NCBI RefSeq assembly: GCF_026151205.1 | Contig: NC_087073.1 | Location: 20,800,837 to 20,860,836 of the forward strand | Source of the DNA: Bolinopsis microptera | Lineage: Eukaryota > Ctenophora > Tentaculata > Lobata > Bolinopsidae | DNA: 60,000 nt | Direction: 5' to 3' | Shown: positions 1-45,381 of the stretch, piece by piece | Layout of the letters: each line of letters opens with the position of its first letter | Position numbering within the stretch: the first letter of the stretch is position 1 | Translations under genes and position numbers: made by a program | Notes under the pieces: generated by a model | Database searches by the model: none | The model's input: only the letters and a program-made list of their open reading frames with translations | What the model was told of the DNA's origin: nothing

Positions 1-1130
1 AACTGTATGGCTGGTCACTGGTCTCATATCCTAACCGTAATCAGATGATATAATTAGATTAGATTAGAGATAAAACCTAATTACTCCACACTTCAATTTG
101 AACTCCTTGGATAGCACATACTTCACGGATATATTTGTGATTGAGTCAGTTACAATCATTAATCATACATCAGTTTTCAAACCGAGTGTTTTTCCGGTAT
201 TAAGTTGTGTGTGACAGTGCATATTATGCAATCTTGATAGACCTGACGTTGTTTTAGGTTTTCTAATCCAAAGCACGAGATTTTATTATCGTGCGGTTCC
301 CAACAGGGGCCGAGAAAGTCATCCAGTGATTTAATTCTTCATACTTCTTCCGCACAACAGATCTCAAAACTTCTTGGCAGCCTCAGTTTTGTTATGTTAC
401 ATCAACTGATTATCTTTAACCGCAAGGAGTAATGAAAAATTAAATGTAAAAGTACCTGTCATGTGTTAAAACATGAGCAAAGCTGTTCCTCTCAGGGAAA
501 AGCCACCAAGGCCCAGAGTTTGACTTTATTTGAAAGAGTTATACAGCGAGAAAAGACATTGCACTTAAGTGAAATCTAACTTTTTAAAAATTATTCGACA
601 ATTCGTTTTATTTTGATCCAGGTGCTATGTTTTGATTTTGACACCTAATTCAGTACCGATATGAGATCCAAAGAAAAAAAAAATGTACGACACCGTTAAA
701 AAGACAGTAAAAATTTACGTAAGAATCAACAACCATCGTAAAAATACAAATATCTATCATTTGGAACATATTTTCTTAAAAACCTTACAAAACAAAACAT
801 CCCAACAAAAATGTAGAAGTCCTTCAATTCTTCATTATTCAAGATAATTTTTTAAACAGTTCATTTCAGTTGCAATTACAGTTGTCGGTGACAGCATTGA
901 TGATATTCTTCACATTGTACGCATTGCAGAGGTTGGTGAGACGATAGAGATATTTGGTGATGTAAGGGTGGGTCTGCATCTTGTAGCACTGGCTGAAGAA
1001 AGCACTCAGCACACCTTTGTTGCACTCTGGATGAGCTATGGTTTGAGCATATCTCGAGACCGTGATAGAGCCAGTAACTTGGCGAGAGATCTGATCCAAT
1101 ATCTCCTGGACCTTACCCTCGGTTAAAGTG
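1..1130. repeat. Tandem-duplication block, copy 1 (legumain array)
   Basis: This block covers the spacer downstream of legumain copy A and the last part of its coding region. It is almost identical to 2226-3390. Differences are scattered single bases, a roughly 30-bp stretch present only in copy 2 (near 2908-2937) and a few small indels. The window starts exactly where the second block starts relative to its gene, so a third unit probably lies to the left. A minus-strand AATAAA (607-612) about 255 bp past the stop codon could be the polyadenylation signal of copy A. Confidence 0.9.
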
Positions 1131-2170
1131 TGATACTTGATCTCCTGATCCAATCTGTCTGCTTCCTTCTTGTTGTTGCATCTCCCCCTTTTCCTCTCCA
1201 GATGATACATCATCACATCAGGAGTAGCTGTTGACTGGTACCTGTATTTCCTGGCAGGAGGAGACAGTGGTTCGGTCTCTGTCTTCTTTCTGTTATGTCC
1301 CATGAAAAAGGAGATTGGCTCTTTGTAAATAAGCGTCAAATCACCAAAAATTTCAGTATGACTTTCGAAAGTCATATTCTTGACAGCTAAGTACTGCTGT
1401 TCCACCGTTTCCTCTACCAAGTTAGGGAAGAACTGCTCAGTGTTATTCATCCAGTTGAGACTCCAGCAGTCCCCCAGATAAACCCCGATATCATCATCCC
1501 AAATACATGCCCAGGAGCTCTCGCTCTCGTTAGCAGCCGTGTGAGCTGTGATGTTCATGTTAGGGTCCAGCGTGTTGAACATGGAGCCGGAAAAGCAGGC
1601 CTCCACGTACCACAACATCTGCTTGTATTTCTGTTGACTGTGCATGGCATCAAGGACCTTAGTAAGATCTGCCAAGTAAAGTTCGTCTCTGGGGAATCCA
1701 AGAACACCAGGGGCTCCGTGATCGACAAAGTTTACGAAGACCTTGTCCTTTGGTCCACTCAAGAGCGTCTTACGACTGCCAACATCCATTTCTTTACCCA
1801 GCAAGACGTCTAAGAAATTTTGTGGGGTTACGTCTATCCCCATGTAATCTATCATGACACCTTCATACACATCTTTACCAGAGAGAGCATTGATAATGTA
1901 TCCTCGATTCGGGTTTTCCCCGTTGAAGGCAATGTCGTTGACCATAAACGTAATGACATTCCGTCTAGGAATCCCATGTTTCTTGGTTAGCAAATGGTAG
2001 GCATGACAAACATCAGACTGGTGCCGATAGTTGAACCAGTTGGAGGACCCAGCAATTAACACTGCCCATATCTCTCCTCCTCCTTCAGGCTGCTGGAGGA
2101 GTTCCTCATCAAGATGATATCCCTGCACTGCAAGCAAGAAACACGCCGCAATCAGGGCGATCCTAAACAT
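866..2170 (-). CDS. Legumain-like cysteine protease (C13), copy A
   Basis: Asparaginyl endopeptidase of the legumain family, expected to be secreted or lysosomal and made as a proenzyme. The ATG at 2170 is chosen because its product MFRIALIAACFLLAVQG is a signal peptide matching the start of copy B; the longer open frame begins only with TTG. Catalytic His is at residue 151 (VDHGAPG) and catalytic Cys at 192 (VEACFSGSM). S1-pocket residues known from the family are present: Arg-His in YRHQSD, Glu before Ala-Cys, and Asp in LGDCWS. The residue after the catalytic Cys is Phe, where most family members have Glu. The C-terminal prodomain is Cys-containing and ends in DNCNCN. There are about 434 residues, the usual legumain length. 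No introns interrupt it, unlike typical animal legumain genes. Confidence 0.93.
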   Translation of the reverse strand: MFRIALIAACFLLAVQGYHLDEELLQQPEGGGEIWAVLIAGSSNWFNYRHQSDVCHAYHLLTKKHGIPRRNVITFMVNDIAFNGENPNRGYIINALSGKDVYEGVMIDYMGIDVTPQNFLDVLLGKEMDVGSRKTLLSGPKDKVFVNFVDHGAPGVLGFPRDELYLADLTKVLDAMHSQQKYKQMLWYVEACFSGSMFNTLDPNMNITAHTAANESESSWACIWDDDIGVYLGDCWSLNWMNNTEQFFPNLVEETVEQQYLAVKNMTFESHTEIFGDLTLIYKEPISFFMGHNRKKTETEPLSPPARKYRYQSTATPDVMMYHLERKRGRCNNKKEADRLDQEIKYHTLTEGKVQEILDQISRQVTGSITVSRYAQTIAHPECNKGVLSAFFSQCYKMQTHPYITKYLYRLTNLCNAYNVKNIINAVTDNCNCN

Positions 2171-2225
2171 GTCTTCTTTTTGGAGCAGAGCAAAGGAAAC
2201 GAGAAAATAAAAATTGCACGATTTC

Positions 2226-3390
2226 AACTGTATGGCTGGTCACTGGTCTCATATCCTGACCGTAATCAGATGATATAATTAGATTAGATTAGAGATAAAA
2301 CCTAATTACTCCACACTAGAATTTGAACTCCTTGGAAAGCACATACTTCACGGATATATTTGTGATTGACTTTGAGTCAGTTACAATCATTAATCATACA
2401 TCAGTTTTCAAACCGAGTGTTTTTCCGGTATTAAGTTGTGTGTGACAGTGCATATTATGCAATCTTGATAGACCTGACGTTGTTTTAGGTTTTCTAATCC
2501 AAAGCACGAGATTATATTATCGTGCGGTTCCCAACAGGGGCCGAGAAAGTCATCCAGTGATTTAATTCTTCATACTTCTTCCGCACAACAAATCTCAAAA
2601 CTTCTTGGCAGCCTCAGTTTTGTTATGTTACATCAACTGATTATCTTTAACCGCAAAGAGTAATGAAAAATTAAATGTACAAGTACCTGTCATGTGTTAA
2701 AACATGAGCAAAGCTGTTCCTCCCAGGGAAAAGCCACCAAGGCCCAGAGTTTGACTTTATTTAAAAGAGTTATAGAGCGAGAAGAGACATTGCACTTTAG
2801 TGAAATCTTACTTTTTAAAAGTATTCGACAATTCGTTTTATTTTGATCCAGGTGTTTTGATTTTTATACCTCATTCAGTACCGATATGAGATCCAAAGAA
2901 AAAGAAAAAGCTAGAGTAAACTTCAAGTTTTCCGGATGTACGACACCGTTAAAAAGACAGTAAAAATTTACGTAAGAATCAACAACCATCGTAAAAATAC
3001 AATTATCTATCATTCGGAACGTATTTTCTTAAAAACCTTACAAAACAAAACATCCCAACAAAAATGTAGAAGTCCTTCAATTCTTCATTATTCAAGATAA
3101 TTTTGTATACAGTTCATTTCAGTTGCAATTACAGTTGTCGGTGACAGCACTTACGATATTCTTCACATTGTACGCATTACAGAGGTTGGTGAGACGATAG
3201 AGATATTTGGTGATGTAAGGGTGTGTCTGCATCTTGTAGCACTGGCTGAAGAAAGCACTCAGCACACCTTTGTTGCACTCTGGATGAGCTATAGTTTGTG
3301 GATGCCTAGAGAACACCGTATCCATCTCCCGGGAACCAGTAACTTGGCGAGAGATCTGATCCAAAACCTCCTGGACCTTGCCCTCGGTTA
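2226..3390. repeat. Tandem-duplication block, copy 2 (legumain array)
   Basis: Spacer between the two legumain genes plus the 3' end of copy B, nearly identical to 1-1130. It acts both as downstream region of copy B and as upstream (promoter) region of copy A. The minus-strand AATAAA at 2837-2842 lies about 280 bp past the stop codon of copy B. No other gene is visible in the spacer. Confidence 0.9.
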
Positions 3391-4426
3391 AAATGTGATA
3401 CCTGATCTCTGCGTCTAGTTTCTCAGTTTCCTCCACATCGAAGGACTTATCTCTTTTACTTTTGAGATATTCCATCATCACATCCTGGCTGGGAATAGGC
3501 TTGTAAATATAGTCCCAGTCAGAAACTGGCTCAACCTCTATTGCACTTCCAGGATGACCGAGGAACACGGAGATTGGCTCCTTGTAAATGTAAGTCAAAT
3601 CACCGTAAATTGAGGCATGACTGTGGGTAGTCATGTTCTTCACAATCTCGTATTGCTCTTCCACAGTTTCCTTTGACAAATTAGGGTAAATCTGCTCAGT
3701 GTTGTTCATCCAGTTGAGGCTCCAGCAGTCTCCAAGGTACACATCCATCTCCTCGTCTTTAACACAAGCGTAAGAGCTCTCCTTTGTGTTTGATGCAGTG
3801 TGAGCTGTGATGTTCATGTCAGGACTCAACTCGTCGAACATAGACCCGGAATAGCAAGCTTCTACGTACCATAGCATCTGTTTGTAATGTTTATCCATGT
3901 ACATAGTCTGAAGGGTCTTGGTCAGGTCTGCAACGTGAAGTTCACCTGCGGGGAATCCGAGTACTCCAGGACCTCCGTGATCGACAAAGTTTACGAAAAC
4001 TGTGTCCTTTGGTCCACTCTTTAGACTCTTACGGCTGCCGAACTCCATGTCTTTGCCCATTAGGACGTCCAAGAAAAGCTGTGGAGTTACGTCCTTTCCC
4101 ATGTAATCTATCATGACACCTTCATACACATCTTTACCATGGAGAGCGTTGATTATGACTCCTTGGTGCGGGTTTTCTTCGTTGAAGGCGATGTCGTTGT
4201 ACATAAAGGTGATGACGTTTTTCTTGGGAATCCCATGCTTTTTGGTCAGAAGATGATAGAGATGACACACGTCAGACTGGTGCCGGTAGTTGTACCAATT
4301 TTTCGACCCAGCAATAATAACTGCCCATATCTGTCCTCCTTCTTCAGGCTGCTGGAGAAGATCCTCAATAGGGTGGGATTGTACTGCAAGCAGGAAACAG
4401 GCCGCGACCAGGGCGATCCTAAACAT
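3119..4426 (-). CDS. Legumain-like cysteine protease (C13), copy B
   Basis: Second legumain-family asparaginyl endopeptidase, 435 residues, intronless, same orientation as copy A. It starts with a signal peptide (MFRIALVAACFLLAVQS). Catalytic His is residue 150 (VDHGGPG) and Cys residue 191 (VEACYSGSM). The S1-pocket Arg-His (YRHQSD) and Asp (LGDCWS) are kept, and Tyr follows the catalytic Cys in place of the usual Glu. The last 60 or so residues, from QTIAHPECNKG to DNCNCN, are nearly the same as copy A, whereas the middle has many substitutions. The upstream region beyond 4430 does not resemble that of copy A, so this looks like the outer member of the array. Confidence 0.93.
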   Translation of the reverse strand: MFRIALVAACFLLAVQSHPIEDLLQQPEEGGQIWAVIIAGSKNWYNYRHQSDVCHLYHLLTKKHGIPKKNVITFMYNDIAFNEENPHQGVIINALHGKDVYEGVMIDYMGKDVTPQLFLDVLMGKDMEFGSRKSLKSGPKDTVFVNFVDHGGPGVLGFPAGELHVADLTKTLQTMYMDKHYKQMLWYVEACYSGSMFDELSPDMNITAHTASNTKESSYACVKDEEMDVYLGDCWSLNWMNNTEQIYPNLSKETVEEQYEIVKNMTTHSHASIYGDLTYIYKEPISVFLGHPGSAIEVEPVSDWDYIYKPIPSQDVMMEYLKSKRDKSFDVEETEKLDAEIRYHILTEGKVQEVLDQISRQVTGSREMDTVFSRHPQTIAHPECNKGVLSAFFSQCYKMQTHPYITKYLYRLTNLCNAYNVKNIVSAVTDNCNCN

Positions 4427-5939
4427 GTCACGTTTTTCTTAAATTCAAACACAGACGAGGATGCAAGAAAGGAAGTGTGCTACAATATCAGCTGCATGTC
4501 TATGAGTATGGGTCGTGTCATGCGATTGCACTTTAAATCAGGTGACTGAACTTAGGAAAACTTGACTTCCAGTTCCGGTAATTTCATTAAATGCACAATT
4601 TCTAACATCGCGGTTATCTAAGTATTTGATAAAGTTATATTTGCTTTAAAAAGCAAATTTTGCCGACATGAATACAGTATACTCCTGATGTTTCGTGATT
4701 GTTGGTGTTGAATGTCGGTTTACCAAATATCGGGGAAAATAACGAATACAGTATATAATTATTTGTTATCTACAAGTGTAATATTATTTGGAATGAGAAC
4801 GTTGTCATTTTAGTTACATTTTTCGTGGAAAGGCTTCAAGAGACTTTGCTCTAAATTTAATATGTTTTGGATCAGGTGTACGGTTATATTAACAGATATA
4901 GAACGGGAAGAGAGTAGATCAAAATATTAAGATCAATTTTATAATGACTTCAACCTGGGTTGATATTATTGTATCCTTTTTAGCTATTTGAATCCTTTCC
5001 AAACCAAGTATGAGACTGATGGATAGAAAGAACAAATATTGAGATAGGGGTCGACTGTATGTAGAAACCTATTTTGGTAGATCCATTGGCACTCAACCAC
5101 TATGATGACATAGTATCTTGCAGCTTGCTGTCCTATATTGTCAACGTTTTTTTTCTACTGTATGTGACCTATCATGTAAAATTCCTGAACTAATAACGAA
5201 GTTTCTAGATAATTATAATTTGGATCATGAGTAAAGACTTATTACTTCAAATTGAGCAATAAATATAATGATAGTTCAAATTATGGCATGTTCTGTGAGG
5301 TAGAAGCTTGATAGGAAGTCTCGAAGTTTCTATGTGTCACATTTAATTTTTAATTTATTTAATAAAAAAACTAATTTGATAACATGAATAGAATGCTATG
5401 CGACACACCGAACCGCTGAGACTTTAAGTGACTTGAATGTGACCTACTACCGAGTAACCGAGTGGCATTCTACAACTAGAGTATTCGGGCACGTTTTTCA
5501 GAAGCTAAATGTCGTGACAGATGTAGCGGATAGTAGTTAGTGAAAGAGTAGTTGTAGTATAGTTGTCCAGCAACTTAACTTTGGTCATGAAAACTTCACT
5601 TCTCACGCTTAACAATGTTTTAGCTCTATATTTCAGGAGCTGCTATTGGAGTATGGAGATTGGCGGTGCAGCTTCCAGCCTCATCGGATACCGTGTACTT
5701 TATTCAACAAGTCTTGAGGTATTGAGGGCACCTTCGGATAGGAAATGTACGTCACTGCAACAACTATTTAAAGAAAACTCTTATTCCAAGCGCAGGTGCG
5801 AGTAGAAGGCTAAGGCGAGCCTCATAGAAAAAGGGTGGGATATCAAAGTTTATATTAGAGAGCTTCCCAGAGTAAGTTAGTCCAGTTTAACCAAACAACT
5901 TTTCGTGTGCTTTAGTTGCTTATCATCCGCTGTACCAGA
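4427..5939. other. Intergenic, no gene recognised
   Basis: AT-rich spacer between legumain copy B (minus) and the small secreted gene (plus), so it should contain both upstream regions. Only a short open frame without an ATG start (5563-5805) occurs, and it shows nothing protein-like. No repeat was recognised. Confidence 0.5.
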
Positions 5940-6347
5940 ATGTTGAGAATATTGCTGTTGTCACTGTGTGCCTTGGTGGTGTGTCAAGGAAGGAACATTG
6001 TCCGGGAAAAGAGGGAAGCTCGACTTAGGAAGAAGAGTATGCCACTAGCAGAACCGGCCTCCGAGAGTACGCCAAGTGATGGTTATCCCACCGGGAGTTG
6101 GGTTTCTGGTGACTACGTTTCGGGCAGCTACGTTTCTGGGGGCTACGTTTCTGGAAGTGGAGGTTACGTTTCTGATTACTTTTCAGATTGGTTCTCCGCG
6201 TTCCCAAGTGAGGAGCCAAGTGATGCAAGTGACCCTATTGGTGACTCTACCTTTAGAAGAGTGGCTAACCAAGTCGCCTCAATGTTTGATGGAGCCTTTA
6301 ACAGCAGGAAAGGAGATGAAAAGAAGGGGAGAGAATTGCATTTTTAA
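5940..6347 (+). CDS. Small secreted protein with VSG-x-Y repeats
   Basis: Unknown family, 135 residues. The ATG at 5940 gives a clear signal peptide (MLRILLLSLCALVVCQG); the frame is open eight codons further only through a TTG. After the signal come a basic stretch with possible dibasic processing sites (REKR, RLRKK), then residues about 45-80 with a repeated motif of the type VSG(D/S/G)YVSGSY that is rich in Gly, Ser and Tyr, then an acidic Ser/Pro stretch and a basic C-terminus. It could be a secreted structural or precursor peptide; the function is not known. A pyrimidine-rich AG (near 5901-5915) sits 24 nt before the ATG, so an upstream 5' UTR exon or trans-splicing is possible. Expression is not proven by sequence alone. 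Confidence 0.6.
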   Translation: MLRILLLSLCALVVCQGRNIVREKREARLRKKSMPLAEPASESTPSDGYPTGSWVSGDYVSGSYVSGGYVSGSGGYVSDYFSDWFSAFPSEEPSDASDPIGDSTFRRVANQVASMFDGAFNSRKGDEKKGRELHF

Positions 6348-6875: not shown

Positions 6876-9800
6876 CTACAATTATATACAAGGTAACACT
6901 GCAGTTCCACATCGGACACGTAATTGAAGAAAAAATGTATTTAATTTAAGTTTTCTTCTGAAGGGTGTAGAAACAGGGAATACGTCAATTCATTTCTTGT
7001 CACGTAACAGATTATTGAATACCGTAAATAATTTCTCTGAATTATAGCGGTTCATTCTTAGAAGCGGTTTGAAGATAACAGAAATTTGCCCATCACAAGT
7101 AGGAGTGCCTCTACCAACGCTGAATGCAGAATACGATAACGGAACCGCATTAAAAATACTTGAAATTTAGTAGATAATATATCTAAACAACATATCGACA
7201 TTCCAAGGTTAAATACCTAAATCACTGGGAGCATACTTAATGAAGTATCCTGGCACAATCTAGATTCTAGACCCATGTTAGTGCTTTCTGTATTAACTGA
7301 AAGTAATCATAGAATGCACCCCTGACTAATTTAAAGAATTTGTCATACATTTTTCTCTTTACGACTCATTTCCTCAAAGAAATCATCTCTACGACCAGTT
7401 ATTTTGTTGTTGTACAACATGATATGTAGAAGAACAAAGTGACAAAAATTTCCAAAAATGTGATTAAATTTACCTTGTTTCTGTTGGCATGGTGGGGAGT
7501 GTTGCTCCAAACTCCTTCTGAAGCTAAGGTGTCAGTGCTTGGTGAAATCAGCTCAAATGTTTGGTCGTCCAAGGATACCTGTCTGCGGGCCTGATGTGGT
7601 TCAGTTATGCTACTGTCACTCACCTGAGGGTCATGTTTACATTACATTTATTTTCTTTTAAAAATTGCATGTATGTTTGTTAACTTTACAATATACCATC
7701 AATGTATAAAAGGTGGACAAAAAGAGATTAAATCAACATTTATTCAAAAGAATTAGTAAATTGTAACTTTATCCAGTCCACACCTGATTGATATCAGAGT
7801 TTTCTTTATCATCTGATGACGTCACATGTATATCATTTAATGAAATATCCTCGTGTTTTGGTAGCAACGCCTCTTTTAACTCGGACTCTGAAGAGGTGTC
7901 TTTTGCCTCCCCATTCTCGCAGATGGATGACAAGGCTTCAGTCTGACCATTCTGGTAATCCTCACTATTTTCTGAGATGGAAGCACTTCGTTCCAAGCTG
8001 GGCCGCTGTGACGCTGTTAGATATTATAGTTAACGTTAAATTAAGTTTGAGGATTTAAAATAAAAATGAAACAACTCAGTCAAGGAAACGTATACCTTTA
8101 AATTCTTTATTATATGTATAATAACCCTTGAAAATCCAACGAAAGTTCTAATTATCTATGTAAAATACTAACTTTGGACGTCTGCCATTCCTTTACAGCT
8201 TGGTTCGTTCTCGGGAATGTTATGGTCTGTTAACTTCTCCTGAATGACAGGGGAGGCGGGAGCGTCGAATGTCAGATCTCTGAGAGCGGGTCTAACGTAC
8301 TTTCCTGTCCGGACCCTCCACGAGTCGGGTCGCTTAGACGCGTCCTGTTCAATCTGCAAAAGAATGTGTCAACTGTCATGATCAGGAACAAGGTATATAG
8401 ACACTAGTTGCATAAAATGTATTAACTTTTTAAGCTTAATATACTCCACATTTGAAATTGACGAGTTGCTGAGTCATCATTCACATTTAACTTATCAAGA
8501 TTAAATATAATTAGAATCGTCACTCGTGAGTCGTGAAGTAAATGCCCATGAATCTCAAACTCGACTGAGTCTAGAAGCTTTCATGGGATCCTGCGTTTCA
8601 CTAACCTGTTCCACAAACACGTTGTGTAGTTCAGCACTCTCACGTCTTTTGTCCTCTCTCTCGCCAGTGGTCATGCGACTCACTAGCCGCCTGGGTTTTA
8701 ATTACACAATTAATCACACAATTCATTACACAATTAAATACACAGTTAAATACATTGAATCAGAGCTGGACCATCTAGTTATTACGCATACAAGTGAAGA
8801 AAATTAGAATGCAGAAAATGTTCGGTAACTTATGCAATTCTGTCCCTGTTCACTGATAAGAATTCGATCAATAAATTTAAAATGAATGATTGATTACATT
8901 GAAGCACTGAGAATTGAGAGAAATTTATTGAGTCATATTCACGTCGAAACCGATACCCAATAGAAATCTTTAAGTTATATGGTCCGAAATAAGTAATCTT
9001 GATATCGGTCGCGGTGCTCGTGATGTGGCTACAAACATTTAAAGGGTAATGGTGCCAATTTTCTAGTAATTAAGGCTAACTGAAACTGAAAGATCACCAA
9101 ATCTACAGTAGAAAAAGGGAAAAAGGCGCGGCAGCAGCGTGACGAGTTCAGCTACACAAGGGGAGGTATAAGCAAAGTAAAAGCCATCATATGAAATAAA
9201 ATGAATATTTTGTAATTAAGCTATATTTAAATATTGGTAGCAAAATTTCGTTAAATGATCCATTTCATCAAAGCTTGGCAGTAGTCATCGCCAAGATGTA
9301 ACCCATTACCCATAAGTAGCTTAATAACTAGATTAAAAATGTAATGCTATTTGGCGGCGGTTCAGTGGGAGGGAGGTGGGTAAATAGTAAATACTCGTGA
9401 GGGTGCGGTTATACTTGGAGGTTTTTTTGAGGAACTGTTAAAATACAGCTGTGTATAAAAACCAGTCACACTACTACAGCTGATGGTGAGATACGTTTAA
9501 ATTCACGGCTAAGTCTAAAACTCAACTGTCTATCCAAACATATTTCAATCTAGAACTTTAGTACAACATTGCTTCAGGAGATGGACCAATGGTTGCCAGG
9601 AAAATGTGCAGATCTACACGGGATGTGAACATTTAAACGGAACAGCATCGTTTCAACCTATTAACGGGTAATTGTCAAACAAAAATATGGAAATATCGAC
9701 GAAGATGGCTAGATTCAAAATCTTTGGTCCATTGTAGATATTACTCTTTGCTTTTAAGTATTCACGTACGATTTAAAATTCATCAGTTTGTCTTTAGATA

Positions 9801-12800
9801 CTGTTAAAAAATCGACGAATTCGAATACTCACACTGCTGCAATACCCATGACGCTTACACCACCGGGGAGATACACCCCGTATCTCCCCTTAACCGCCGC
9901 CCCTCCCGTACGGAAAGCACAAGTTGGGTCTCGAAGTGAGTCGACGTAGTGGCCTATTAATTGCTAGGTTATATAGAGTGGTTCGAGGGTTTAGAGGAAT
10001 ATACACTGAAGGAGTATAACTAAAGACAATATAGCTAGACGTACTCCATAATGGTTATATCCTTTAATTGGTACAGGTCACTACAATAAACCACTAACGG
10101 AAAGCCTTCTGAAACTAATCGTTTCATGGACGATATACATTGCAGTTCATACAATTCTATACATTTGTGAACCAACTCGAAAACTGCGTGGAATCCAATT
10201 TAAAGACTGCCAATTCGGCAAACAGATTGACCACTTGGACACAAAGCTCTACCTCGGAGATAACAGCAGTATACAGTGTATAGTGCAGTGTATACTATAA
10301 GTGTATAATTATAGTATACACTACAAACGAAATAAAAAGAAGTCTCATAAGTTGATTATTTCTTCAGACGGATAGTTTTCCTCTGGAAAACGTGTTCAAA
10401 TTAGTTGTATTCTCACAAGTGAGTTCCTACAACGTGGAGCAAATGAAACAGTTATTTAAACTCAATTTAGCATTTTGGTTATTGGAAGTTCCGTGCATCA
10501 GGATTTTGTGCTAAAATGAAAGAAAGCGATCTTTAATAAACTTTAACTCGGCATGAGATCCTGGAGAGGTTCGCTGTTTATCAGTCTCATGATAAGATAA
10601 TGATTCAAGGGATAATATCCGGTAGTAGAGACTAGGTAGCGTAGGACAAGTGAAACTACTGTTTAGGAGGAAACGCAAGCTTTCAGTGTGCTACACTTTC
10701 ATCAGGCTCAAATTATTGGTTATATAGTAACAATACTTTCAACACTACTATATAACAAATAATTAAAGCCTGATGAAAGTGTAGCACACTGAAAGCTTGC
10801 GTTTCACTTTCCTCCTAAACAGTAGTTTCACTTGTCCTACGCTACCTAGTCTCTACTACCGGATATTATCCCTTGAATCATTACTTTAACTCGGCATGTT
10901 TAGTTGATTTTGGAGCACCTACTTTAGCTTTTTAAAATGATACGTCCACCGTTACAGATAATGTCTAATTGAATCCCTCTGGTGAACTCTGCAGGGATTG
11001 GTTAACATCCTGCATGTTTGCTACAACCTACACAATCTGACAAATTTCTAAAACACTTGCAAGCTCATAACATTCCTCTTTACGGGCGCGTCTTAGTCTT
11101 ATTGCTGAGTGACTGTAAGTTCAACAATTTGATTCATCCAGTTAAATTGTTGAGATTTTGATCTTTAACGGTTTACGATCGCCTCCTCCAGAGCTGGTTC
11201 CAGATTCCAGCAGATTTAGTAATTACATAGTATTATAATATTGCAGAGTGAATTGTATTCATATTGAAAAGTGAGAAAAATTTGGTAGTCATGAAGACCA
11301 AATTTTTAAAATGAATGCCAACTACCTTTTGCTTATCGATTGCTAGGCTTATTTTTGTATATCTCCTGCTGTAAAAGTAAAAACTGTTAGTTAAAACAGA
11401 AGGTTCCTGTTTTAACTAAACAATTTTTCTCTCACAAAATCATTTTCAAATGATTAGTTGATTAAATAATTGGCTAACTGTGATTTTACTTTATATAAGC
11501 GATTGCTAGGCGGTTGTTGAATGTTGATGTTGACATATCTCTAGTAATGAGGAATCGCAGAAGTTTCTAGTCTAATCCAGGATCTTACCAGTCAGCTAAG
11601 TCCGAATGTTGACGGACAGTTACCTCTGGACCTGTGCGAAGACAAACTTATTCTACAGCTGATAGATCGAGATCTAATCAAGACGGGTAAGCTTCATTGC
11701 TGTTTCCTAAGATGTTGTTAGGAGTGGCAAAAGTTGTGAGGCTTCCTAGTTCCTAACAATGGTTATATCTTTTACAGATAACAGTACTATTCATTATGTA
11801 GGAAGAACGGTGCAGCCCCTCAGGGCACGAGTAAACGAACATCGCGCCCATTACTACAAACTCATTTCGGACAATACGTTTGTCCCTGAAGAAAACGACG
11901 ACGGATTCAGCTTGGGTAAACACCTTGTAGAAGTTCATAACATGAAACAACGTGACAATTTCAACCCGGCTTATAAAGTGTCAATTCTCAGTAATAGTAG
12001 CCCAAGAACTCTAGAAGTGGATGAACACCGTTATATTCAGAAACTAAGAACTATACGTCCATTGGGGCTCAATGCCGTGGACCCGTTTGGGATTCCATTA
12101 TTGGATTTATCTTAAATGTTTTCTATTGCATTGGGGCACAAGAGTTATGTTTTTTTAAAAAAAATATTCATATCGTTTTTAGTTGTGTCATTTCATTTCC
12201 AATGTTACACTTTGTAGGAACTGATATTAACCGAGTTTCTGATTCAGGATGTTACTGAAGATAGTAATGAAAATGTTTTAACACCTCAGTACTGTGTTTT
12301 ACTACAGCTCAACCTGCTCAGTCTGACTATTTGGGAATTTAAACTCTTGACTATTCAGATATTATAGTAGTTCAAGTTTCTTCCGCTTGAATTATATGTA
12401 CATAGCATAAGTTAGTAAACAGGTCAGTTTTAAGTTTGACCATATTTCTCTCTAGGGATCACAGAAAAAGACTTGGCTGAACCCCGGACAAATCAAGAAA
12501 CAAAGTTTTTCAACGAAGTCAGACAATTTTTGGAGCACGGTGTTAATCCAAACTTTCACCTTCTTGATAAGTTGATAACGACGCAAATCTGGTCAATATT
12601 AAACCATCGTCTGTAAAACAAATCATAATCCACCAAAATTGTCAGATCTCCATATTTCCGAGAAAGGAATGAAGTTCCCAAGCTTCTAGAAATTGCTATA
12701 AAATGGCTCAAGTCGGGACGTGCAATGAACGAACAGTGACAAAATCAATTTGTTGACGAATTAATTCATGAGCACAACGAAATGTATGATCAGAGCTGCA

Positions 12801-15800
12801 CTGACGCATCGTATGGTAAGTTTAGTGACAGGATAAATAGTCAGAATGTTCAAATACAAAGAATGTTAATAAGAGGGTAGTCGGAATGACGAGTGTCTAA
12901 TGCTCCGAGGCCAGGTTAGTGAGAGAGTACCCTAATATAGTCAAAACTGTTTCAAAACCAGAGACTATTTTGCAGTTAAGGGAGAAAAAGCGAGAGAGCT
13001 AAAGAGCTAGAGAGAGAGAGCGAGAACTGAGCAAGTCAGAGGATGCTGTATCTTGATAATGTGGAATGGTAACCGACATTAACCACATCTTCCTCCGCAA
13101 ACCACATCATCCTCCGCAAACCACATCATCCGCGCGGCGCACGTCAGTAAACTCCCATATTAATCGTATAGTTGTAATAAATGGTAGATTACTTATTGGT
13201 CTAATATGGTACTGACTACTCAGGTATACAGTGTAAAAACGATAAAATCGTATTAAATCTCATAATGTGCTGTGATCAAAAATCGATTTTGTCGCAGTTC
13301 CTAAAATACTAATCACTCGTAATTTCGGCATAATGAACGCTACACTCTGTCTAGATACTGAATCTTCTTTGTGATTGATTGACAACATTATTTGGCGGGG
13401 CTTGCTTACCATTGGTGGGCATTTTTACCTAGCAATTTCTGTTCAATATGTCAGATCCTGTCATTCTACCGTAACTGAACTCACTCATGCGATCTACTGT
13501 CACTGATTTTGATTAATTTATTTTCAGAATTTGCATTTTAATGTCTTCTTACTCTCAGTAGGAAATAATTGGGAGGTTTTGACAAGTTTCTTTTCAGCTT
13601 AGTGCGGAGAGCTTTCATTTGATAGCAACCTATTATTAGGAGAAAATGACGTCCTCAGTAAAATGTCCAATACATTTCTTGTACTTGCCACGAAAAACTG
13701 ATTGCATAATGCACATTCAGTAGAAATGGAAAATGGCGCCGGCTTGGCCTATTAAAATGAAACACGACGGGGATATGATATGTGAGATTAAACTGAAGCT
13801 TTAATATGTCTCTACTTTCTTTAGAACTAGATGGTAAAACAATGAGCGATTTAAGGAGTTCGTGCAACACTCATTTAGTAAATGAACGTGCATAAAAAAT
13901 GTAAGCTAAGAATAACCCACGTCCCGTTTGAAAAGGATCAAAGAATAAAGAAACATGCACTAGAAATTTCATATTTAAGCGAACAAGAAAAATGCACGCA
14001 AATTTAACGGCAATTCCCAGAGAGATCATTCGTGCAAACAATGGGCTGCTAGTAACGTACCCAGAACTGGAACTTCTTAATAGCCCCTTTCTAGGATTAA
14101 ATCGTGTAATTTATTTCTCTTTTTATCAACCAAATGTAATCATCGCAACTTAGCAGTTACTATTCTTGATTGCCGATTGGTCGGTTATAATCAAAGCAAT
14201 CGACAGCGAATAGATTAACAACCCAACATAGTACCACGAAGAAGCGATTAGAAACCCCCGATATTATGTTGTCTGCAACTCAAAGTTATGATCAGAATAT
14301 TCACAAAAATCACAAAAATGTGCTGTTTCTTACCCTCTGACACTGGAAGGTCTAAGAGCACCTCCAGGATGTTTCTTCATCAGCTCACTCCTCTCCGATA
14401 ACCGCTGTAACAAATTCTTGATGTCCTCATCTTCCGTGAGATCTGTTGAGAAGAAGGGACTAGGTGTTGATGTGAAGGAACGAAATTCAAACAAATTTTA
14501 AGTTTGGATTTGCTTTATTATATGGTTCATTTACAGATGACACAGTTGATAAATCTATTTCTGGACGCCAGTGCAGGTCTCATTCGATTGATAAAGATAT
14601 TACTGTCGCTATTTTTGTCTATTCAATCGCTCTTATAAAAAGTTTTGCTAATATTCAGCGGACCTCGTTACAATTCGTTACTGAATGACCGAATAATAAT
14701 ATAATCATGACACTGTATACTGCAGTACAAGGACTTCAGTTTATATTTTAAAATACCTTAATGGGAAAAATCGCGATTCCGTACATGCCGCGATTTCCTT
14801 TTGTCCCTGTGTGCGACAGACGATAACGTACTTGTTAAATTCTAGATTTCCAGTAAAAATTCAATAAAAACGCACCGGCCGGACGCTCTCCGCTAAAAGT
14901 CCTAATTTTGAAGTCAGCACCGTGTGCTCCGAGTAGTTCTATAATGTCAACTTCATCCCAGAAAGCTGCTGCATGGAGGGGTGTCCAACCGTCGATATCT
15001 TGTATATCTACCTTGCCAGACTTGGAGAGGATGTAGAGGGCGACCTTCGACATAGCCATTAGCTGCTGCCACGTGTAGCTGACGGAGGACACGTCATTAA
15101 CTTGTGTTTGGAAGTAGAGATCGGGTTGGGAAAAAGTGTGGAACTAACGAGAAAGGTAGGAAAATGTGAAATATGGAGATCTAAAGATTTTGGTAGATTA
15201 TGATTTGTTGTATACTACTACTAGTCGATGGTTTCATACTGACCAGAGTTGCATCGTTATCAAGAAGCTGAAAGTTTGGATTACCACCGTGCTCCAACAA
15301 TTGTCTGACTTCGTTGAAAAACTTTGTTTCTTGACTTGTCCGGGCTTCAGCCAAGTCTTTTTCTGTAATCCCTAGGGAGAAAGATGGTCAAACTTAAATT
15401 TGGCCTGTTTATTAACTAATGTAACTAGCAGGAACCCGTCTAACCCTAAAGTGGTGTCAAAAATCAAGAGACTAATATATAATAATTATTACCTATTTAA
15501 TCCGCGTTTTTGACACCTCTTGGGGGTCCAAATTTTGGGCACTAAATTTTGTTTATTTTTTCGTGCTGATTTAAAGGCCATTAAACATTTGAACCAGTCA
15601 AAAAAGTCGTGTTAAAGTTGGTGCCGTATAATATATATATATATGCATCTTACTATATATAAAGCGAGACGATATATATATATATATATAATATATTTCA
15701 TTGCTGAACTTCTACACAATAAAAAAGCGGTTGTGACTAGATCCTCGCAATTCTTTGCATCATTTATTTACATCAATTCTCAAATTATTTGTTATATAGT

Positions 15801-18800
15801 AGTGTTGAAGGTATAAAGTCTCGCTTTATATATATAGTAAGATGCATAATTTAAGCGAAATAAATTTGAACTACTATAATATCTGAATATTACTGCCGTT
15901 ATCTGTAAAAGATGTAATCATTGTTAGGAAGCCTCACAACTTTTGCCACTCCTAACAACATCTTAGGAAACAGCAATGAATCTTACCCTTCTCTATTAGA
16001 TCTCGATCTATCAGCTCTAGGATAAGTTTGTCTTCGCACAGGTCCAGAGGTAACTGTCCGTCAACATTCGGACTTAGCTGACTGGTAAGATTTATGTCAA
16101 TTATCTGGAGTGGACTGTGAGTCTGTGAGGCGACTGAGAAGAAAATTAATTGGGCAGCAGGTGAGTAGGTGGTGAGGATAGGTGAGTGTTGTAAACACTA
16201 ACAGGTAAGTATTGTAACCAGGTGAGTGTTGCAACCAGGTGAGTGTTGCAACCAGGTGAGTGTTGCAACCAGGTGAGTGTTGCAACCAGGTGACTAAGGT
16301 GAGTGTTACAACCAGGTGAGTGTTGTAATCAGGTGACTAAGGTGAGTGTTGCAACCAGGTGAGTGTTGTAATCAGGTGACTAAGGTGAGTGTTGTCACCA
16401 GTGTAGGAACCTGTGTGGTTATATTGTAAATACTAACAAGCTTGATAACACTTCATCGGATATTAATTTAAAAGACATGCATATTTGTACATTCAGCTAT
16501 TTAAAGCTTTTACTCCGGCAGACATTTAAAATGTTGGCTAACTTGGCGTTGTGTTTAAGAAGGAGGTCGACACATTCGTAGTTAGCGAGGGATACAGCAG
16601 CGTGGAGCGGAGTCCACAGCTCATTATCTAAACTGTCAATATCACATCCTGCTTCAATTAGCAACTCCGTTATCTCCTCGTCGTTTTCTAAACAACTCTG
16701 ATGGGAGATGTAAGGTTCAATAAAGAGTAACCACTGCACGGTATACCGTATAAGTCCAGAATTATAGTTCAAAACTAGTAGTAGGTAACATGTAATATGA
16801 TACAGTGTGGGCCAAATTAGGTGCGAATACTCTGGAATCTGAATCCTCTAAAATTCGCAATTAATATCATAGGATATATTGCGAATACTCTGGAAAGAGA
16901 ATCCTTTGAAATTCATAATCAATATCACAACATGTATTGCGAATATTCTGGAATCTGAATCCTTCTAAAATTCACGACAAATAGAACAGGATATTAAATT
17001 ATAATAAGATCTGCACTTGGTACCTGATGGAGAGGTGTTATTCTATCCACATTGTAAACAGTAGGATTAACCCCCTCACTTAGCAGCTTCCTAACTCCCT
17101 CTTGATCCCCAAGAGCTGCACAGTTCAGTAGCACAAGACCCGGGTCAAAGAACGGTCGGGATTCCTTCTTCCGCTTTTTCGGGTGTTGTTGTGTCTCGAT
17201 GAGGTCCTCATTTTCTGTAATTTATTTACTTTTAGAGATGAAACCGTGAAAATTCTGTTTTGATACTTATTGCAGACGTTTTTCAGACGTGTCTGAGGAA
17301 AATCGAAACTGGCTGAAGTTAACGACTTTGAATCAACGTAGACTGTATTCACACACACTACAACCATGACAGACAGTCGTACTAAAACATAGGTGCGTAA
17401 AATTGAAACAACGCAATTTAGAATAAATTAACGCTGACGTAAAACTAAAAGGACAGATTTATATCCAGAGATATATTCTTATTTCTTAACAATATATATG
17501 CTTATTGTAAAGCGACCACGTTGCAAACATCCGCTGTTTAATACATACCATTCCCTTATTTACTACATATCTGGGATTTCTTATTCAGCACGAGGTGTAA
17601 CACTGTAGATAATATGACCCTATACAGAGGAAGAAATGAACAAGACTCTATCATGTACTGTATTGAGCTCATAAAGGGATGGAAATATCCTCAACCTCTA
17701 TCATCGAGACGAATTTGGGCGGTCTAATCTCACTTCATTTACATGTCTTGGTTGGGAAGAGACTCCTCAAGTAGCTTCCCTACTGTCAAGTAAAAATCTA
17801 TATTATTTTATCATGTGCTAAGTAATAACTGAGTCTATTGTTTCCATTATTATGACACCATAACATAATAACATTGCATAAGTTAGGTTTCGTCACTTAA
17901 ATACTGTTGGATCTGACACGCAATGGCTGTCTCAACTTTTCTCAGGGAGAGCCAAGAAGTGAATTCAGGGTAACACCTTCACCTGTGATCTCAGTTCATT
18001 ATAGTTGTAGTTGCAGTGAGGTAAACAAAGCGAGTTCCTTTGCCTCGTTTCAAAAATAAAAGCGATCACCAAAAATGGTATTATTGTTGGTGAATCTAAT
18101 CGAGCTCCTTGCCAAGGTTTGAGGAGTAAAATTGTGGTCACTCGAAGAGGCAGATTTCTCAACATTTGACAGGCCATTTAAATATATCATATTAAACTGG
18201 TGACCATTTTAATTTTGATATACAGCTTCAGTCACAATTCCCACCAGTATGCGGATTGACAATTCACGATTGCGGTCGCAAATTCTTCTTTTGAGTAGGC
18301 GGTATGGCAAACAAAGGAAGTTCAAGATATTGTTTGTTATCTGATATGTGTCTACACCACACCCTAATAATTTAACATCAGAATCTGGTTGGAATCGTGT
18401 TTAAATTGTCGGTCAGAGTAGGGAAAATATTGGAATCAAGGTAAAATAACGGGCCTAGTATAATAACTGTCAGAACAGTATTATTCTTGGTGATATTTTG
18501 GAAAATCATGTCGGGTATTGATTGTAGAGACGCTACTGGCAATCGGTGGTACTAGGGCGTGCTTGGTATATTTCGAGTATTAGCGTCAACAACATTTATA
18601 ACGGTAAAACACGGGAAAAGTCCAGTTTTCAATTTACACGTTATCCGTGAAGCAGATGCAAATGCCAACACTTTCAATGTACATCACATTTCTAACTCCC
18701 AGCCAACAAGTTTCATTACACAAGTTACATTTGAAGTGACATAATTTAAATGCCAATTCCAACTCTACAGTAAATTTCATAATGGCATTTACACCACAAA

Positions 18801-42243: not shown

Positions 42244-45200
42244 ATATAATAACGTGGTCATGGTAAGTAAATAAAACTTGAGCATAAAGTTAGCTACTAT
42301 ATGGTTGTTAGAAATTACCACAATTGCACTTTTAAACTTTACAACTGAATCACCAATCAATTCTTGTCACTACTTCAAAGTTTTGAGACGGTAGAATGTT
42401 GTGAATTGTGAATCCTAAGCTATCACACCAGTTCAATTACACTTCAAAACTTCAAAACTGAATCACCAATCAATTCTTGTCACTACTTCAAAGTTTTGAG
42501 ACGGCAGAATGTTGTGAATTATAGCTCATAAGCTATCCACTCCAGTTCAATTACATTTTCTTACTTCAAAACTGAATCACCAATCAATCCTGGTCACTAT
42601 TTCAAAGTTTTGAGTCGGCAGAATGTTGTTAATTATGGTTCCTAAGCTATCACTCCAGTTCAATTACACTTTTAAACTTCAAAACTGAATCACCAATCAA
42701 TCCTGGTCACTATTTCAAAGTTTTGATACGGCAGAATGTTGTGAATTATGGTTCCTAAGCTATCACTCCAGTTCAATTACACTTTTAAACTTCAAAACTG
42801 AATCACCGATCAATCCTGGTCACTATTTCAAAGTTTTGAGTCGGCAAAATGTTGTTAATTATGGTTCCTAAGCTATCACACCAGTTCAATTACACTTCAA
42901 AACTTCAAAACTGAATCACCAATCAATTCTTGTCACTACTTCAAAGTTTTGAGACGGCAGAATGTTGTGAATTGTGAATCCTAAGCTATCACACCAGTTC
43001 AATTACACTTCAAAACTTCAAAACTGAATCACCAATCAATTCTTGTCACTACTTCAAAGTTTTGAGACGGCAGAATGTTGTGAATTATAGCTCATAAGCT
43101 ATCCACTCCAGTTCAATTACACTTTTAAACTTCAAAACTGAATCACCAATCAATCCTGGTCACTATTTCAAAGTTTTGAGTCGGCAGAATGTTGTGAATT
43201 ATGGTTCCTAAGCTATCACTCCAGTTCAATTACACTTTTAAACTTCAAAACTGAATCACCGATCAATTCTGGTCACTATTTCAAAGTTTTGAGTCTGCAG
43301 AATGTTGTGAATTATGGTTCCTAAGCTATCACTCCAGTTCAATTACACTTTTAAACTTCAAAACTGAATCACCAATTAATTCTGATCACTATTTCAAAGT
43401 TTTGAGTCGGCAGAATGTTGTGAATTATGGTTCCTAAGCTAATAACGTGGTCATGGTAAGTAAATAAAACTTGAGCATAAAGTTAGCTACTATATAGTTG
43501 TTAGAAATTACCACAATTGCACTTTTAAACTTCACAACTGAATCACCAATCAATTCTTGTCACTACTTCAAAGTTTTGAGTCGGCAGAATGTTGTTAATT
43601 ATGGTTCCTAAGCTATCACACCAGTTCAATTACACTTCAAAACTTCAAAACTGAATCACCAATCAATTCTTGTCACTACTTCAAAGTTTTGAGACGGCAG
43701 AATGTTGTGAATTGTGAATCCTAAGCTATCACACCAGTTCAATTACACTTCAAAACTTCAAAACTGAATCACCAATCAATTCTTGTCACTACTTCAAAGT
43801 TTTGAGACGGCAGAATGTTGTGAATTATAGCTCATAAGCTATCACTCCAGTTCAATTACATTTTCTTACTTCAAAACTGAATCACCAATCAATCCTGGTC
43901 ACTATTTCAAAGTTTTGAGTCGGCAGAATGTTGTTAATTATGGTTCCTAAGCTATCGCTCCAGTTCAATTACACTTTTAAACTTCAAAACTGAATCACCA
44001 ATCAATCCTGGTCACTATTTCAAAGTTTTGAGTCGGCAGAATGTTGTGAATTATGGTTCCTAAGCTATCACTCCAGTTCAATTACACTTTTAAACTTCAA
44101 AACTGAATCACCAATTAATTCTGATCACTATTTCAAAGTTTTGAGTCGGCAAAATGTTGTGAATTATGGTTCCTAAGCTAATAACGTGGTCATGGTAAGT
44201 AAATAAAACTTGAGCATAAAGTTAGCTACTATATAGTTGTTAGAAATTACCACAATTGCACTTTTAAACTTCACAACTGAATCACCAATCAATTCTTGTC
44301 ACTACTTCAAAGTTTTGAGTCGGCAGAATGTTGTTAATTATGGTTCCTAAGCTATCACACCAGTTCAATTACACTTCAAAACTTCAAAACTGAATCACCA
44401 ATCAATTCTTGTCACTACTTCAAAGTTTTGAGACGGCAGAATGTTGTGAATTGTGAATCCTAAGCTATCACACCAGTTCAATTACACTTCAAAACTTCAA
44501 AACTGAATCACCAATCAATTCTTGTCACTACTTCAAAGTTTTGAGACGGCAGAATGTTGTGAATTATAGCTCATAAGCTATCACTCCAGTTCAATTACAT
44601 TTTCTTACTTCAAAACTGAATCACCAATCAATCCTGGTCACTATTTCAAAGTTTTGAGTCGGCAGAATGTTGTTAATTATGGTTCCTAAGCTATCGCTCC
44701 AGTTCAATTACACTTTTAAACTTCAAAACTGAATCACCAATTAATTCTGATCACTATTTCAAAGTTTTGAGTCGGCAGAATGTTGTGAATTATGGTTCCT
44801 AAGCTAATAATGTGGTCATGGTAAGTAAATAAAACTTGAGCATAAAGTTAGCTACTATATAGTTGTTAGAAATTACCACAATTGCACTTTTAAACTTCAC
44901 AACTGAATCACCAATCAATTCTTGTCACTACTTCAAAGTTTTGAGACGGCAGAATGTTGTGAATTGTGGTTCCTAAGCTATCACACCAGTTCAATTACAC
45001 TTCAAAACTTCAAAACTGAATCACCAATCGATTCTTGTCACTACTTCAAAGTTTTGAGACGGCAGAATGTTGTGAATTATAGCTCATAAGCTATCACTCC
45101 AGTTCAATTACACTTTTAAACTTCAAAACTGAATCATCAATCAATCCTGGTCACTATTTCAAAGTTTTGATACGGCAGAATGTTGTGAATTATGGTTCCT

Positions 45201-45345
45201 AAGCTATCACTCCAGTTCAATTACACTTTTAAACTTCAAAACTGAATCACCGATCAATTCTGGTCACTATTTCAAAGTTTTGAGTCGGCAGAATGTTGTG
45301 AATTATGGTTCCTAAGCTATCACTTCAGTTCAATTACACTTGCAA
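42244..45345. repeat. 113-bp satellite array with higher-order structure
   Basis: About 25 tandem monomers of roughly 113 bp. Each contains tcaaaactgaatcaccaatc and ttgagtcggcagaatgttg. An 81-bp insert (starting aataacgtggtcatggtaag) marks block starts at about 42247, 43441, 44183 and 44804. The blocks hold about 10, 6, 5 and 4 monomers. Within blocks, monomer variants recur in the same order (agacgg or agtcgg, tcataagc or tcctaagc), so the array grew by duplication of multi-monomer units. An 8-bp inverted repeat (TCAAAACT with AGTTTTGA) lies in each monomer. There is no open frame. Confidence 0.95.
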
Positions 45346-45381
45346 ATAAATACTTAATAAATAACAAAAATAAATACTTAC

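Follow-up and report, generated by a model that had tools for sequence, protein, structure and literature searches.

A gene that carries an inverted copy of two of its own exons raises the question of whether the copy serves the gene, for example by folding its transcript back on itself, or is a by-product of rearrangement on its way to decay. The question is posed by an ankyrin-repeat gene on the minus strand of a 60,000-nucleotide stretch of the ctenophore Bolinopsis microptera (assembly GCF_026151205.1, contig NC_087073.1, positions 20,800,837 to 20,860,836; C2:20800837-20860836 in our searches), which has a GC content of 38.3% and is hereafter called the window; the genome searched comprised 264,652,675 bases in 232 contigs. 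Taken together, the evidence is probably best explained by a neutral, decaying local inverted duplication, in which the copy would have no selected function and its potential to form double-stranded RNA (dsRNA) would be incidental.

Comparison of the window with itself by BLAST paired 11582-11793 with 16091-15884 (91.2% identity over 215 columns, E 3e-82), 12406-12658 with 15421-15168 (84.4% over 262 columns, E 5e-80) and 12352-12395 with 15889-15846 (90.9% over 44 columns, E 5e-10), and because of these E-values a chance match of the arms is excluded. When six paired sub-segments were summed, 449 of 484 aligned bases were identical, with 35 mismatches (7.2%). The right arm (15168-16091, minus strand), upstream in the sense of transcription, carries exons 4 and 5 as they stand in the gene, together with intron 4 and the first part of intron 5. 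The left, downstream arm is the inverted copy, read on the plus strand: its first part (11582-11793) contains exon 4 (copy at 11596-11686) and the start of intron 4, and its second part (12350-12658) continues through intron 4 to exon 5, whose copy at 12456-12591 includes an 8-nt insertion, and on into the first part of intron 5. A preliminary description of this locus had claimed that exons 4 and 5 are present in a second, inverted copy, and both the self-BLAST pairs and the exon peptides, which match at both places, bear this out. It had also called the two arms the same segment in opposite orientation; that is true of the outer parts, about 500 bp per arm, to which the matching is confined, and not of the arm middles (11794-12349 and 15422-15845), which are unrelated repeats inserted there. 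In the genome as a whole, the exon-5 arm occurs in exactly two places (2 of 2 candidates scored), the flank at 12655-14300 is single-copy, and so is the spacer at 14300-15167 apart from a short repeat of about 52 bp (best 40 of 832 candidates).

The identity of the parent gene was established from five open stretches on the minus strand, which code for successive pieces of one ankyrin protein; exon borders were deduced from acceptor, donor and frame. Exon 4 (LSPNVDGQLPLDLCEDKLILELIDRDLIEK, 15987-16077, 91 nt) has its start set by acceptor and frame and ends at the donor GGGTAAG, and exon 5 (ITEKDLAEARTSQETKFFNEVRQLLEHGGNPNFQLLDNDATL, 15244-15371) measures 128 nt. The peptides of these two exons match two places each at high identity, while those of the remaining exons match one place each in the window. 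Searched against the genome, the joined peptide gave 43 matches (130 of 130 candidates scored), and those outside the window were only weaker ankyrin genes. The Pfam Ank domain passed or came near its cut-off in three of the five exon frames submitted, and the structure of MYPT1 (1s70_B) aligned to the joined peptide in a single continuous alignment (query 2-270, E 2.2e-42); higher scores were obtained by generic ankyrin chains. The gene has the arrangement of ankyrin repeats seen in the MYPT family, with a repeat spacing that we take to be nearest to PPP1R16 (MYPT3/TIMAP), and we therefore describe it as a MYPT/PPP1R16-like ankyrin gene, the PPP1R16 part of the name being our presumption. Short tandem repeats resembling strings of splice donors (caggtgagtgttg) lie in intron 3 (16180-16401), on the strand opposite to the gene.

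Each arm has been interrupted by a mobile insertion, and the two insertions differ from one another. In the copy, the 3' end of a retroelement with a GIY-YIG-like open frame occupies 11794-12349 (plus strand, about 560 bp), flanked by ACTATTCA, an 8-bp target duplication present at 11786-11793 and 12350-12357. Among the matches listed (best 40 of 117 candidates), this element end recurs in at least 39 other places at 96–99% identity, and it is young. The element may be Penelope-like. Another copy of it (L021) contains a 403-amino-acid frame in which GIY-YIG (PF01541) is matched at E 0.0099 with 16.6 bits, under the cut-off of 22.6; judged by eye, this frame resembles the end of a Penelope-type reverse transcriptase, and the Pfam search of it returned no reverse transcriptase match. 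In the gene itself, intron 4 holds a repeat of about 424 bp (15422-15845, minus strand) that the copy lacks; 88 of the 92 matches listed for the segment (best 40 of 2,459 candidates) fall within it and lie elsewhere in the genome.

The preliminary description placed the copy in intron 7, and our results are consistent with this placement. Exon 7 (14334-14459, minus strand, with an alternative start near 14443) is closed by a strong donor, GTAAGA, at 14333. We scanned the minus strand for coding segments between AG and GT, using a codon score that had been trained on 41 frames, each 250 codons or longer and some of them perhaps not genes. Below exon 7 the top-scoring candidate was 8353-8173, which ranked second in the whole scan, followed by 7618-7474; on this coding score, 8173-8353 (minus strand) is the best candidate for exon 8. 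The inverted copy thus probably sits in an intron of about 6 kb (14333-8354), and for this reason both arms would be included in one primary transcript. The same presumed intron contains a near-perfect hairpin at 10598-10883, 88.6% self-complementary over 298 columns and apparently bordered by a 16-nt direct repeat.

An inverted haplotype fragment misjoined during assembly could also place two such arms side by side. The Bolinopsis microptera assembly was produced with wtdbg from PacBio reads, followed by gap closing and haplotig purging, as stated in passages of the assembly report (PMC10232365), and exon 6 (14876-15078, minus strand) contains a 1-nt frame shift near 15039-15051, where LHVAAANGYV is read in one frame and VALYILSKSG onward in another. 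This difference may be either a sequence error, which would suit an imperfect assembly, or a true lesion of this allele. However, the arms differ by 7%, with several indels and different mobile insertions, and the spacer and flank are single-copy except for the short repeat mentioned above. We consider an artefact of this kind highly improbable.

Regarding the duplication as real, we can postulate how it arose. The copy contains intron 4 sequence; a retrocopy is thereby ruled out, and the duplication must have taken place at the DNA level, since the intron was copied along with the exons. Carriage of the copy by a repeat is unsupported, the flank at 12655-14300 being single-copy, with no separate search made of the opposite flank (10884-11581). 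We infer that about 500 bp, from the end of intron 3 through exon 4, intron 4 and exon 5 to the start of intron 5, was duplicated in inverted orientation into intron 7, some 3 kb further along the direction of transcription, possibly by an event of the template-switch type. Unconstrained drift since then would account for the substitutions (7%), for the 8-nt insertion that disrupts exon 5 of the copy and for the mobile elements, unrelated to each other, that have entered the two arms.

Substitutions in the copied exons are consistent with such drift. In the copy, 2 substitutions in exon 4 are silent and 3 alter the protein; in exon 5 the corresponding numbers are 2 and 6, in addition to the 8-nt insertion, which breaks the frame. 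Protein-changing substitutions therefore make up 9 of 13, a small number, compared with 78% expected at random. Purifying selection on the copy was rejected as an explanation, because this share is close to the random expectation, although the changes are few. Divergence in exon (13/220) and intron (22/254) did not differ significantly (p = 0.29). Several observations nevertheless weigh against a copy that is simply decaying. It retains GT and AG at the borders of intron 4. Divergence is lower in its exon-4/intron-4 part (12/243) than in the remainder (23/241; p = 0.055), a possible sign of gene conversion or constraint. Moreover, 109 exact 21-mers are common to both arms; given these, the copy is not yet useless as a source of antisense sequence. 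The substitutions themselves are those of a single genome.

A neutral origin is more readily accepted where inverted duplications are frequent, and we estimated their base rate from 20 random 10-kb stretches (200,000 bases, no N). Stretch positions were drawn within the largest coordinates of earlier matches, which under-samples chromosome ends, and a pair was counted when it was 60 bp or longer and its spacer 100 bp or longer. Inverted pairs were present in 6 of the 20 stretches, and in three of these six (L004, L019 and L020) the aligned arms exceeded 200 bp. Copy number was determined for the pairs in L020, L004 and L003, with L009, L017 and L019 left out: L004 and L003 belong to repeat families, and L020 is a two-copy local inverted duplication found in exactly two genomic places. 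The L020 pair (1140-1518 / 2134-2446; G000:C7 12528685-12529063 / 12529679-12529991) resembles the present one in being two-copy and closely spaced; it differs in that no long open frame or recognisable exon was seen in it, and its identity is 76%. Inverted pairs are thus common in this genome, and the locus described here is distinguished only by containing exons. Among the other pairs, L019 1-4508 is a satellite-like repeat in which a block of some 528 bp is inverted and 97% identical.

A duplication without selected function may still have consequences for the RNA, and the predicted folding indicates that the arms would pair strongly. Stem A (246 + 212 nt) has a duplex energy of -340.3 kcal/mol, compared with -71.3 (standard deviation 6.2) in 100 shuffles, and stem B (254 + 255 nt) has -349.0 kcal/mol, compared with -76.3 (standard deviation 6.4). 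The stems comprise 197 and 229 pairs, and in this respect they resemble hairpin RNAs (hpRNAs), with stems well over 100 bp. In the minimum-energy fold of 16150-11520 (4,631 nt), 467 of 1,535 pairs are formed between the arms; exon 4 contributes 87 of them and exon 5 contributes 123. All four splice dinucleotides flanking these exons are paired. The preliminary description envisaged a duplex spanning exons 6 and 7; the pairing of the arms agrees with that suggestion, whereas the predicted structure is two stems with large loops between them and not one continuous duplex. An unspliced transcript with both arms could accordingly fold so that exons 4 and 5 are buried and exons 6 and 7 are looped out, offering a substrate for editing or dicing and possibly causing low-level skipping of exons 4 and 5.

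Since exons 4 and 5 are themselves the upstream arm, and all four of their splice sites are buried in the predicted fold, masking or skipping of these exons, an outcome that the preliminary description had not named, is at least as direct a prediction as the circular RNA of exons 6 and 7 proposed there. Provided that exon 4 begins at 16077, the loss of 91 + 128 = 219 nt would preserve the frame, and we consider skipping the sharper of the two predictions. The argument for the circle is one of geometry: of the complementary arms on either side of exons 6 and 7, the downstream one is intronic by our placement, and the upstream one is mostly exons 4 and 5 with intron 4, to which intron 5 adds no more than some 76 nt (15168-15243). 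A splicing switch, in which the stem masks the exon 4 and 5 splice sites to give a regulated isoform lacking the 219 nt, or back-splicing yields an exon 6-7 circle, or both, would draw on this pairing and on the preserved frame. Work on Caenorhabditis elegans (PMC8330042) found that exon skipping as well as back-splicing is promoted by reverse complementary matches. In those known examples, however, the matches are intronic and do not comprise the exons themselves. The upstream arm would also be transcribed kilobases earlier, and may be spliced before the downstream arm exists; the arms are decaying without sign of constraint; and the exon-3 donor and exon-4 phase are deduced, which makes the frame argument conditional. 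We regard a regulated switch of this kind as unlikely.

The enzymes that act on dsRNA are encoded in this genome. The A_deamin domain (ADAR/ADAT-type) was found in six long frames, with 13 matches in all, and the Piwi domain had 19 matches, 17 of them above the cut-off. The sole RNase III matches obtained with PF14622 are two in one 1,626-amino-acid frame (G000:C2:9739083-9740117), consistent with a single Dicer. Excerpted reports on Mnemiopsis leidyi describe adenosine-to-inosine editing that mainly targets repeats, with 45% of sites located where antisense transcription was seen (PMC9989829), and 4,408 unique clusters of endogenous small interfering RNAs (endo-siRNAs), which tend to be structured and are unbiased to coding genes (PMC6211395). 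The same kind of source describes microRNAs as lacking in the ctenophore studied (PMC3563456; PMC6211395).

These features would allow a self-targeting hairpin, in which the folded pre-mRNA is diced into siRNAs that act against the gene's own exons 4 and 5 and so damp its expression. In the exon-4 stretch 42 of 77 21-mers recur exactly in the copy, and for the exon-5 stretch the figure is 17 of 103, the complementarity to a target that an hpRNA has; the RNase III frame and the several Piwi-domain genes could supply the processing, and the richness of Mnemiopsis in structured endo-siRNA clusters fits. In Drosophila simulans, hp58 is an inverted exon 2 fragment of a neighbouring gene and silences that gene, as given in the available part of PMC10317233. 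The lack of bias of the Mnemiopsis clusters toward coding genes argues the other way, as does the construction of Drosophila hpRNAs, which are separate transcripts in which both arms are copies, whereas one arm here is the gene. We give self-targeting a slim chance. The various RNA consequences could be combined in an intragenic switch, whereby the speed of transcription or splicing chooses between full-length mRNA, an in-frame mRNA without an ankyrin stretch, an exon 6-7 circle, and self-directed siRNAs; this is a speculative and improbable scheme. Each of these consequences is physically plausible as a prediction of the folding model.

If the fold forms in cells, the locus would provide a natural and compact test of long intramolecular dsRNA that includes coding exons, in an animal lineage with endo-siRNAs and ADARs, of which a studied member is without microRNAs. 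Otherwise, it is an example of a local inverted duplication decaying after mobile elements have broken its arms, and a caution against inferring function from inverted repeats in such genomes.

Other repeated sequences are present in the window. Positions 42247-45346 hold a tandem array whose units measure about 113 bp, with a larger period near 740 bp; many of the copies are 90–98% alike. Positions 1-4438 comprise two copies in tandem that share 83.5% identity across 2,227 columns, and the second contains a single-frame legumain gene (PF01650, E 2e-92). An open frame at 5916-6347 (plus strand) has a start resembling a signal peptide, followed by GYVSG-type repeats.

In a search of open-licence literature, of partial coverage, we recognised no description of such a gene from titles and abstracts; parts of its arrangement, however, have counterparts in known systems. 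Intron 22 of the human F8 gene has an inverted-repeat pair that serves recombination, and the inverted copies flanking exons in the Bolinopsis gene could likewise invert the segment between them, although the arms are much shorter. Complementary stretches on either side of exons 6 and 7, in what would be one primary transcript, recall the reverse complementary matches that give rise to circular RNAs; those matches are intronic and proven by deletion, in the material seen from PMC8330042, whereas the upstream match here is exonic as well as intronic and its effect is a prediction. The likeness to Drosophila hpRNA loci such as D. simulans hp58 is in the inverted repeat derived from an exon fragment near its progenitor and in the long, near-perfect stems. 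The Drosophila loci, as presented in the part of PMC10317233 available, are separate transcripts shown to give Dicer-dependent siRNAs, while in Bolinopsis the exons of the gene itself form one arm, the copy apparently lies in an intron of that gene, and small RNAs are a prediction.

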